DNA from: Nitrospinota bacterium
GTDB taxonomy: Bacteria > Nitrospinota_A > UBA7883 > JACRGQ01
DNA length: 36,315 nt
Direction of reading: 5' to 3'
Assembly: GCA_016217735.1 (NCBI GenBank)
Contig: JACRGQ010000017.1
Span: forward strand, 1-36,315
Under the pieces are notes generated by a model. That model was given only the letters and a program-made list of their open reading frames with translations. It ran no database searches and was not told the DNA's origin. Below are positions 33,698-36,301 of this stretch, in pieces. The first letter of the stretch is position 1. The number at the start of each line of letters is the position of its first letter. Position numbers and translations under genes: made by a program.

Positions 33698-33719
33698 CGA
33701 TATGTAAAGAAGATGCGGT

Positions 33720-33944
33720 ATGGACATGGATACGGCCCTCAAGAATTTGACAAGGGAACGGAGGCGCGGAACGGCGCTCAACAATCCGCGCCGGGAGTCC
33801 GCTATAACGGAACTGAACGCCCTGGAAATGGAAATCAGATCGCGGGGCTTCGTGCTTGCGGCGTGCGCGGCGGACGAAGGGGCGGAAGCGGCGGATCCGC
33901 GTATCGCCGATACCCGCGTTGGCTATTTCGGCATATGGGAGTGA
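33720..33944 (+). CDS. Small hypothetical protein of the gspA unit
   Basis: This 74-residue frame begins at ATG 33720 (a second ATG two codons on), 8 bases after AAGAAG. Its stop lies 10 bp inside the next gene, as in a coupled operon. The N-terminal half is charged (NLTRERRRGTALNNPRRES, LNALEMEIRSRG) and probably helical; the C-terminal half has two... no recognisable motif beyond an acidic ADEGAEAADPRIAD stretch. No family is recognised. The central part is encoded by copy 3 of the hairpin repeat, read in a different frame from copies 1 and 2. A role with the flanking secretion genes is only guilt by association. Confidence 0.6.
   Translation: MDMDTALKNLTRERRRGTALNNPRRESAITELNALEMEIRSRGFVLAACAADEGAEAADPRIADTRVGYFGIWE
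33759..33793. repeat. Palindromic coding repeat, copy 3 (in 74-aa gene)
   Basis: This is the most perfect copy: arms GGCGCGGA (33763-33770) and TCCGCGCC (33785-33792) with loop ACGGCGCTCAACAA. It is read in another frame (RRRGTALNNPRR) than the other two copies, so conservation is at DNA or RNA level rather than protein level. Confidence 0.6.
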
Positions 33945-34825
33945 GGGCGCTGACGGCCCTTCTCCTCGCGCTCATCACGTTCATCGCGGCTCCCGTCCAC
34001 GGCGCGGAGGCGCGGGAGGCCGCCCACGGCGGCTTCCAGGTTAAAGGTCTCGCCTTTCCCCGCGGCTTCATCGTTGACGAAGCGACGGGGTACTACTACA
34101 TCGCCAACCTCAACGGCCGCCAACTTTCCAAGGGGAACCGCGGCTTTATCACCCGGCTTAATCCGGACGGCGCGCTGGCGGAGCTCAAATTCATCCAGGG
34201 GAAGAAAGGCGGCATCACGCTCCACGCCCCCAAAGGGCTGCTGATAGACGGCGACCTTCTTTATATTTCCGACATCGACCATGTGGTGGTGGCGGATAAA
34301 AACAGCGGCGCGTTTGTGGCGTCGGTCGACCTCGCCGCGCACGGGGCGCAATACCTGGCCGATATGGCCCGCGGCCCCAAGGGGCGCATCTACGTCTGCG
34401 ATACCATCGGATCGAGGATATTTATCCTCGATCCGGCCAGGAATTATGAGGTGTCGGTTTTCGCCTCCGGCAAGGATCTCGATTCCCCCAGCGCCATCGC
34501 CTACAGCCCGAAGCTGGACAAATTTTTAGTCACGCTCGCATCCGGCCATGTTGGCGCCATCGATATGGCGGGGAAGGTGGATCCGAAGTTCATCAATGTG
34601 GGTTCCCGCAACCTGGTCGGGATGGATATCGACGACGAGGGGCATATCTACGTGGTCAGCTTCACGCACGGCAGGGTGATGCAGATGGATAATCTGGGGC
34701 AGGGGCAGAAACGGATTTTAGGGGAAAAGCTCAACACCCCCGGCTCACTTTTCGTCGACCGCAAAAACCGCGAAATCCTCATTCCGCTTACGCTTTCCCA
34801 CCGCCTGATCTCGCTGGATTACTGA
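33935..34825 (+). CDS. Secreted NHL/SMP-30-like beta-propeller protein
   Basis: The 296-residue protein starts at ATG 33935 with a signal peptide (MGVRALTALLLALITFIAAP, cut probably after VHG or near AEA). The mature part is made of repeated blade motifs such as GFIVDEATGYYYIANLNG, GLLIDGDLLYISDIDH, GPKGRIYVCDTIGSRIFILD and GMDIDDEGHIYVVSFTHG. These are typical of six-bladed NHL or SMP-30-type propellers. No enzymatic residues are assigned. It overlaps the 74-aa gene by 10 bp and ends the sigma-54-driven unit, so it may be a substrate or partner of the secretion machinery. The frame continues upstream to 33713, but the signal peptide fixes the start. Confidence 0.87.
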   Translation: MGVRALTALLLALITFIAAPVHGAEAREAAHGGFQVKGLAFPRGFIVDEATGYYYIANLNGRQLSKGNRGFITRLNPDGALAELKFIQGKKGGITLHAPKGLLIDGDLLYISDIDHVVVADKNSGAFVASVDLAAHGAQYLADMARGPKGRIYVCDTIGSRIFILDPARNYEVSVFASGKDLDSPSAIAYSPKLDKFLVTLASGHVGAIDMAGKVDPKFINVGSRNLVGMDIDDEGHIYVVSFTHGRVMQMDNLGQGQKRILGEKLNTPGSLFVDRKNREILIPLTLSHRLISLDY

Positions 34826-34850
34826 TTTCCCCGGCGGGTCGCACCTTCCC

Positions 34851-34945
34851 TTGGTACCACAGGTTTTAACCTGTGGTTGCCGCGTTAGCGGCAAGATTTT
34901 CTTGGCCCTCGCGGGCCAACAACAGGATGAATCCTGTTGTACCAA
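34851..34945. mobile_element. MITE-like element of four tandem hairpins
   Basis: This 95-bp non-coding element has terminal inverted repeats TTGGTACCACAGG (34851-34863) and CCTGTTGTACCAA (34933-34945), 12 of 13 bases matching. It is immediately flanked on both sides by TTCCC (34846-34850 and 34946-34950), a probable 5-bp target duplication. Inside are four perfect hairpins: CCACAGGTT/AACCTGTGG (34857-34876), TTGCCGC/GCGGCAA (34877-34894), TTGGCCC/GGGCCAA (34902-34919) and CAACAGGAT/ATCCTGTTG (34920-34939). It lies between two convergent genes and may also stop transcription from both. Confidence 0.65.
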
Positions 34946-34968
34946 TTCCCGCGCTTCTTAAGCCCACC

Positions 34969-36213
34969 CTACCGCCCAAACAGCTTTTTTCCCGCCTCCA
35001 CCGTGGTGAAACTGCCGGTAACGCAGAGGATGCGCGGCAACCGGCGCGGCGCGGCGGCAACCGCCTTTATTCCCATCGCGCGCGCGGCGTCCGCCAGCAG
35101 TCCGGCGTCCAGCCCCCGTTTCGCGTCCGGCTTTATGCAGTAAATTGTATCCGCGAGCGGCTTGAGTATTTTCAGCATGGCGGAAAAGTCCTTGTCGTCC
35201 AGGATGCCGAGCAGGAAATCGCATTTTGTAACGCCGGCGCCGCGCAGGTTTTTTACCAATTCCTTCATTGCGGCGGGGTTGTGCGCCACGTCGTGGATAA
35301 TGGTTTTTTCGCCGCGCCACGCCGCCTCGAAACGTCCCGGCAGGCGGGCCGCCGCCACACCGCTTTCTATTTGTTTCGGCCGCACGGCAAAATGCCTTTG
35401 GGTCAACAGCGACTGGGCGGCCAGCGCCGCGTTGGCAAGCTGGAATTTTCCCCGCATCGCGGGGGCGAGGCGCAGCCGCGTGCCGTCGGCGGCGGTGAAC
35501 AGGCCGCGATGCGATACCGTGAAATCCCGCCCGATGAACAGCGCGGGTGATTTTTTTGAACGCGCCGCCGCGGCGATAACCCTGTTCGCCGCCGCATCCG
35601 TGCAGCCGCAGACGAGGGGGCGGCGCGGCTTGATTATCCCCGCCTTTTCCGCCGCTATCTCCGCCACGCTGTTTCCCAATATCGCGGTATGCTCCAGCGA
35701 TACGTTGGTGATGACCGACACATCGGGCGTTACCGCGTTGGTCGCGTCGAAGCGCCCCCCCATCCCCGTTTCCAGCACCGCCACGTCCACCCCGGCGCGG
35801 GCGAAAAGGCAAAAAGCCAGCGCGGTGCTCCACTCGAAGAAGGTGAGGTATCGCGGCGCGTCTTCCCGTTTCAGCGCCGCTTCATACGCGCGGCCCATCC
35901 ACCGCAATGTTTCAAAAATCTCTTTTTGCGGGACGAACGCGCCGTCAATAAGAAAGCGTTCCCGGAAATCGCTCACGTGCGGGCTGTAATACGCGCCGGT
36001 TTTATACCCCGCCGCCGTGAGCGGCGCGGCGATCATCGCGGTGGTGGAGCCTTTGCCGTTGGTGCCGGCCACGTGGAAACAGGGGAACTTTTTGTGCGGG
36101 TTCCCCAGCGCGCGCAAAAGCCGTTTGGCGGGGGCCAGCGCCGGGCGGATGCCGAACCGTTGCATCCCGTAGAGTTCCTTGAGTATCTGCCGGTACGTCT
36201 TTCCCGCGAACAT
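34969..36213 (-). CDS. folC: Folylpolyglutamate synthase / dihydrofolate synthase
   Basis: FolC adds glutamate to dihydropteroate and folates (Mur-ligase superfamily). The 414-residue protein shows FHVAGTNGKGSTTAM (P-loop, about 47-60), YYSPHVSDFRERF, LETGMGGRFDATN, SLEHTAILG, IIHDVAHNPAAM and GILDDKDFSAML, all family landmarks. The ATG at 36213 gives MFAGKTYRQILKELYGMQRF, a normal N-terminus. The frame is open to a TTG at 36279, but those 22 extra codons run through a palindrome and are unlikely to be translated. Whether it has both synthase activities cannot be read from the sequence. It is transcribed alone in this window, convergent with the NHL gene. Confidence 0.94.
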   Translation of the reverse strand: MFAGKTYRQILKELYGMQRFGIRPALAPAKRLLRALGNPHKKFPCFHVAGTNGKGSTTAMIAAPLTAAGYKTGAYYSPHVSDFRERFLIDGAFVPQKEIFETLRWMGRAYEAALKREDAPRYLTFFEWSTALAFCLFARAGVDVAVLETGMGGRFDATNAVTPDVSVITNVSLEHTAILGNSVAEIAAEKAGIIKPRRPLVCGCTDAAANRVIAAAARSKKSPALFIGRDFTVSHRGLFTAADGTRLRLAPAMRGKFQLANAALAAQSLLTQRHFAVRPKQIESGVAAARLPGRFEAAWRGEKTIIHDVAHNPAAMKELVKNLRGAGVTKCDFLLGILDDKDFSAMLKILKPLADTIYCIKPDAKRGLDAGLLADAARAMGIKAVAAAPRRLPRILCVTGSFTTVEAGKKLFGR

Positions 36214-36262
36214 CCCCGTACTATACTCTTTTCCCGGCTTTAGTAGATACTCCTGTCGCACA

Positions 36263-36301
36263 TTGGCGCGCCGCGCCAAGCAGGTCGGCCCGTTGGGCCG
36301 A
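36263..36301. repeat. Two adjacent palindromes upstream of folC at the window edge
   Basis: TTGGCGCG (36263-36270) pairs with CGCGCCAA (36272-36279) around one base. Five bases later TCGGCCC (36285-36291) pairs with GGGCCGA (36295-36301) around GTT. The tandem-hairpin style resembles the element at 34851-34945. It may be part of a repeat cut by the window end or a terminator of a gene outside it. Confidence 0.5.

Follow-up and report, generated by a model that had tools for sequence, protein, structure and literature searches.

A GTAC-tagged four-hairpin element of a Nitrospinota genus, very probably a REPIN of the RAYT system

Near the end of a 36,315-base stretch of Nitrospinota DNA, analysed here as a whole and called the window, a compact palindromic element occupies the space between two convergent genes. 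An earlier note took it for a MITE with a 5-bp target duplication and named a structured RNA or a two-way terminator as alternatives. What kind of element is it, and by which means could it spread? The evidence presented below indicates that it is very probably a REPIN/BIME, a non-autonomous pair of head-to-head REP palindromes with outward tags, belonging to a RAYT (TnpA-REP) system. REPINs are a known type of element; the four-hairpin build and the end tag of this one are unusual. The host is a groundwater bacterium.

Anatomy of the element

The intergenic stretch at 34826-34968 contains the element, with gaps of 27 and 25 bp to the ends of the neighbouring genes. Direct reading of the sequence confirmed the terminal inverted repeat described earlier: the outer ends, TTGGTACCACAGG (34851-34863) and the reverse complement of 34933-34945 (TTGGTACAACAGG), match at 12 of 13 bases. 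The four perfect hairpins of 7-9 bp were likewise found as described, with stems of 9, 7, 7 and 9 bp. RNA folding of the region gave -55.6 kcal/mol (z -6.8), a value equalled by none of 200 shuffles. A scanner for head-to-head GGTRS-tagged hairpins returned this four-hairpin element as its single match in the window. The left neighbour gene encodes a repeat protein, which we take to be NHL-like by its look alone, and the right one is presumably folC. The features are as follows.

33713..34825, plus strand: left neighbour gene, repeat protein; its neighbour counterparts in genomes G002 and G003 are 63-69% identical
34846..34850, no strand: left TTCCC, judged a chance direct repeat with the right TTCCC (boundary repeat in 1 of 27 copies)
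34853..34943, plus strand: complete REPIN-like core, GGTAC...GTACC, 91 bp (match of model R1; length of the 27 complete copies)
34853..34856, plus strand: left tag GGTA, followed by the C that opens the stem (GTAC, where the canonical tag is GTAG), from the sequence and the family ends
34857..34876, plus strand: outer hairpin 1, C[A/G]CAGG type, 9-bp stem; 99.2% of family cells paired
34877..34894, plus strand: inner hairpin 2, 7-bp stem, variable type, here TTGCCGC/GCGGCAA; sequence varies among copies, stem retained
34895..34901, plus strand: short unpaired spacer, centre of the head-to-head dimer, from the sequence
34902..34919, plus strand: inner hairpin 3, 7-bp stem, TTGGCCC/GGGCCAA type; 94.2% of cells paired
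34920..34939, plus strand: outer hairpin 4, 9-bp stem, of AACAGG type if read from the right; 97.5% of cells paired
34940..34943, minus strand: right tag, GGTA on this strand, from the sequence
34946..34950, no strand: right TTCCC, from the sequence and the boundary comparison
34969..36279, minus strand: right neighbour gene, start codon uncertain; 78-83% identical in G002 and G003
36263..36301, no strand: two inner hairpins belonging to another REPIN, degenerate and of a different type, that is cut by the contig end (36245-36315) upstream of folC, from the sequence; same plan as a RAYT-linked element at locus L197

The strict GTAG-REP definition places GTAG or GTGG 5' of the palindrome, and the present tag differs from it; the element is therefore filed as a GTAC-tagged four-hairpin variant.

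Copies, architecture and insertion boundaries of the family

The element does not stand alone. In the host genome, a sequence search gave 30 matches at 21 distinct places, and a covariance model added two more (contigs C22 and C21), bringing the total to 23; many of the matches come in both orientations, the element being close to a palindrome. All three genus-mates carry it as well, with 29, 10 and 22 matches in G001, G002 and G003, each strand counted apart. These data bear out the dispersed, non-autonomous character implied by the MITE reading. An absence of further copies, one part of what the earlier note would have taken as refutation, was not observed. Model R1, whose automatic RNAalifold structure represents the four hairpins incompletely, matched the window element on both strands with 104.6 and 84.6 bits, the window copy itself being part of the model. 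At least 10 of 22 genomes contain matches to R1, all of them within the 11 genomes of the same bacterial family, and none of the 11 genomes outside this family has any; since 150 candidates were scored per genome, the counts are lower bounds.

Architecture was compared over 27 complete copies retrieved together with their flanks, of which the host genome supplied 15 and the three genus-mates 12; incomplete copies, and matches whose flanks had not been retrieved, do not enter the comparison. All 27 consist of two palindromic repeats, inverted and at fixed spacing, over 89-94 bp, and this length stays constant while the stems change on both sides. Each half comprises GGTA, a 9-bp outer hairpin and an inner hairpin of 7-8 bp. 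When the copies are oriented, the same two unequal halves are seen in 25 of 27, the exceptions being L034 and, by a single base, L004. Half A is GGTRCC[A/G][C/T]AG (also given as GGTACC[A/G]CAGG) and has a variable inner hairpin; half B is GGTACAAC / GGTACAACAGG, whose inner hairpin is in most cases TTGGCCC/GGGCCAA. Elements of the window family are also written GGTACCACAGG / GGTACAACAGG. Among the 54 ends of these copies, the tag is GTAC in 50, GTGC in three and GTAG in one.

The stems are conserved through compensatory changes. In hairpins 1, 3 and 4, 97.2% of 673 cells are paired, and 9 of 25 pairs have changed on both sides; pairing this high was reached in none of 500 shuffles, and slid controls gave 31-45%. 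Of the 54 cells that changed yet remain paired, 47 differ on both sides and seven on one only (G-U). From the sequences, this pattern would fit selection on DNA hairpins better than selection on RNA alone, as an indication rather than a proof. Hairpin 2 shifts in register and for that reason does not enter the pair counts; it was folded separately in each copy, and a stem is present in 27 of 27, shortened or interrupted in a few. According to a rough ORF call, the 15 host-genome copies lie between convergent (four), co-directional (five) or divergent genes (three), within an ORF (one) or in settings left undecided (two), so that 12 of the 13 classifiable copies are outside called ORFs.

Some copies are modified within the outer hairpins. 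A recurrent hairpin-forming insert of ~50 nt is seen at the tip of one of the outer hairpins, which may be that of the one half or of the other (L174, L175, L176, L177, L178 and L179). A piece in L019, L020 and L024 had been considered CRISPR-like, a reading that was dropped, as the piece sits in the outer-hairpin loop. Other copies are interrupted inside an outer hairpin, with apparent insertion-sequence ends at contig edges, all in G003 (L190 and L191 on C16 and C34; L051 and L179 on C15 and C53).

The TTCCC repeats on both sides of the window element are real as sequence but are not a feature of the family. At the boundary that gives TTCCC, a 5-bp repeat occurs in one of 27 copies, that of the window, the expectation from mixed flanks being 0.04. 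When four possible boundaries are considered, two of 27 copies have such a repeat (the window copy and L028, the latter at another boundary) versus 0.16 expected, and the remaining 25 have none at any of the four. The excess is slight and is not common to the family. Since only the window copy has a 5-bp repeat at that boundary, no duplication belongs to the family, and the TTCCC pair is probably a coincidence. One matching 5-bp repeat beside a palindromic element is, as a caution, no evidence for target duplication. The orthologous site of G002 has no element, only ~47 bp separating the homologous gene ends; an element-free site in a relative thus exists, but its flanks are too diverged to see break points or a clean site with a single TTCCC. 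In G003, the orthologous convergent site (L114) contains a different inverted repeat, which indicates that the site collects repeats.

RAYT genes and their neighbouring repeats

REP-associated tyrosine transposases (RAYTs) are plentiful in the genus; the host genome has two, on contigs C23 and C57. The product of the C23 gene, P0001, scores 81.5 bits on the NCBIfam profile REP_Tyr_transpos (cut-off 80), and seven of nine further RAYT genes reach at least 80 bits. The HxH motif and the tyrosine are invariant in all 14 RAYTs compared. The best PDB match of P0001 by sequence is the E. coli TnpA-REP 4er8, a structure in complex with a REP hairpin (E 2.2e-10), Y115 of 4er8 being aligned to Y133; 4er8 is also its best match by fold (E 3.3e-8, from a predicted model with pLDDT 83.7). 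A further candidate, L060, matches Y1_Tnp; its frame is unlike the RAYTs, with no match among them, and it was dropped.

Copies of the window family directly adjoin a RAYT reading frame at one locus among the host genome and the three genus-mates. At 7198-7552 of contig C57 of G002, three tandem copies and a half-element lie immediately upstream of a frame whose ATG is 9 bp past the last tag and which ends with the contig after 66 codons. This 66-aa fragment was placed as a RAYT by similarity alone, and family profiles gave no match. A piece related to the ~50 nt apex insert also precedes this frame. A search of the host assembly found no close relative of the fragment (best 44% identity), and the repeats on either side of both host RAYT genes belong to other types. 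In G001 and G003, where copies of the window family are numerous, none was seen with an adjacent RAYT.

Other RAYT genes of this Nitrospinota family are accompanied by four-hairpin elements of different sequence. P0001 is flanked on both sides by elements of the form GGTGGCACGGACA...CCACC, and several other RAYTs of the family have four-hairpin REPINs of quite different sequence. We scanned 19 RAYT loci, namely 16 from a named-genome search (L194-L206, L208, L213 and L216) together with L082, L092 and L104. Head-to-head elements with at least four hairpins were detected at 10 of these, the spans at L196 and L199 covering more than one unit, and at the other nine the same scanner found no four-hairpin element. 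Ten shuffles of the loci (814,930 bases) yielded none. Loci from Zixibacteria, Cyanobacteria, Verrucomicrobia or their genera (L207, L209-L212, L214, L215 and L217) were excluded from the count; L207 has one four-hairpin pair, L217 one two-hairpin pair and the remaining six none.

The RAYT fragment of G002 belongs to a locus with a porin-like gene, situated ~2.5 kb upstream of folC in both G002 and G003. In four genomes (L104 on G002 C57, L119 on G003 C125, G004 C29 and G007 C3), the same porin-like gene is followed by a RAYT or its remnant, and the neighbouring repeats differ between G002 and G003. It is possible that this is an old, vertically kept REPtron whose repeats have changed. A porin search of the host genome gave a weak paralogue match only, so either the assembly lacks the locus or the genome itself does. 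Since the window contig ends upstream of folC inside a degenerate REPIN, the matching porin-RAYT locus may lie in the gap.

Origin of the element and relation to known REP systems

The inverted ends and the TTCCC pair would suit a classical MITE, that is, a deletion derivative of a DDE-type IS, with inverted ends of 13 bp and a target duplication of 5 bp, and a true MITE does carry the REPIN in this genus. It is 247-253 bp long, with inverted ends of ~16-17 bp like CCAATCTCCGGCTAAGG...CCTTAGCCGGAGATTTGG, a few bases of which vary. Its four complete copies with the REPIN, two from the host genome (L132 and L137, on C43 and C53) and two from G003 (L133 and L138, on C54 and C52), are all flanked by 5-bp duplications: GGAAC, CATCG, AGAGA and GCCCT. 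Since four REPIN copies are found inside a duplicating MITE, the REPIN seems to travel in another way as well, as cargo. The window copy, however, does not have the ends of this MITE, and its own inverted ends are the stems of the outer hairpins with their GGTA tags. Together with the 25 copies without any 5-bp repeat and the bare-element copies directly adjoining a RAYT gene, this makes a classical MITE very unlikely. The element could instead have spread mainly as a passenger of the 247-253 bp MITE, bare copies being decayed remnants: besides the four complete copies with duplications, other REPIN copies retain one MITE arm, and a joined-flank search found no MITE copy free of the REPIN. We regard this as extremely improbable, given that many copies, the window copy included, have no trace of MITE arms and that such arms are likewise missing from the tandem copies beside the G002 RAYT.

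A structured RNA or bidirectional terminator, selected between the two convergent genes, would agree with the strong folding, the compensatory changes, the convergent location and one weak terminator-like match overlapping hairpin 2. On the other hand, no Rfam family matched in the window at gathering scores, just four of the 15 host-genome copies lie between convergent genes (rough ORF call), and one-sided G-U changes are few among the changed paired cells. Furthermore, the orthologous site has no element in G002 and another repeat in G003. The alternative raised earlier is thus highly improbable as the origin of the element, and termination is possible as a secondary effect.

For the preferred REPIN reading, the RAYT probably mobilises the element as single-stranded DNA. 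We infer cleavage and transposition from what has been published for E. coli, Stenotrophomonas, Marinomonas and Pseudomonas. Wherever a strand becomes single, for instance as the lagging-strand template, the hairpins would fold; a RAYT, with its HUH site and one tyrosine, would bind the tag and outer hairpin and nick beside them, and the excised strand would be joined elsewhere, leaving no target duplication. If the element influences where the transcripts of the two convergent genes end, this effect would be secondary. A more specific proposal, which we put forward as a rather doubtful one, is that the mobile unit of the RAYTs in this Nitrospinota family is a bipartite REP in which the inner hairpin is obligatory alongside the tag and the outer hairpin, with the tag shifted from GTAG to GTAC in the window lineage.

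Several known systems resemble the family in part. Like the REPINs of P. fluorescens SBW25 (Bertels and Rainey 2011, PMC3116915), it is a non-coding inverted doublet of fixed length with compensatory changes, each type in SBW25 lying beside its own RAYT. The SBW25 doublet folds as a single long hairpin enclosing a spacer and is present as 430 doublets, whereas four short hairpins in a row and ~23 places are found here. The GTAG and CGTC head-to-head REP dimers (Di Nocera 2013, PMC3733652) share outward tags, heterodimers and structured spacers, and several CGTC-3 dimers of Agrobacterium tumefaciens have two stem-loops in the spacer. However, these CGTC dimers are homodimers without a dedicated transposase, and the tag of the present elements is GTAC. 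No GTAC-initial word occurs in that paper, and Nitrospinota is not among the phyla named in the excerpted text. The RAYTs resemble the E. coli TnpA-REP of the REPtron (4er8; PMC8266576) by sequence, fold and aligned catalytic tyrosine, but identity is ~18%, the E. coli REP stems are bulged, and the E. coli system accepts no mutation of GTAG. The host-genome C23 gene is comparable to the RAYT-REP pairs of Nunvar 2010 (PMC2817692), in which a RAYT is flanked by inverted REPs, although the heads there are GT(A/G)G. A literature search found no paper joining Nitrospinota with 'repetitive extragenic palindromic'.

In the Marinomonas enzyme (PMC8266576), changing GTAG to GTAC shifts the cut to GA and GT sites. 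The natural GTAC tag of the window family therefore predicts an altered cleavage site, and the family could represent a natural case of retargeted cleavage. A published REP predictor is restricted to GTAG or GTGG (PMC6006769), and a natural GTAC-tagged REP family would be missed by a tool limited in this way. The present family extends RAYT/REPIN systems to a poorly studied phylum. Furthermore, the related RAYTs, several with a four-hairpin repeat of their own, provide a set for testing the role of the inner hairpins and that of the tag as a guide of cleavage.
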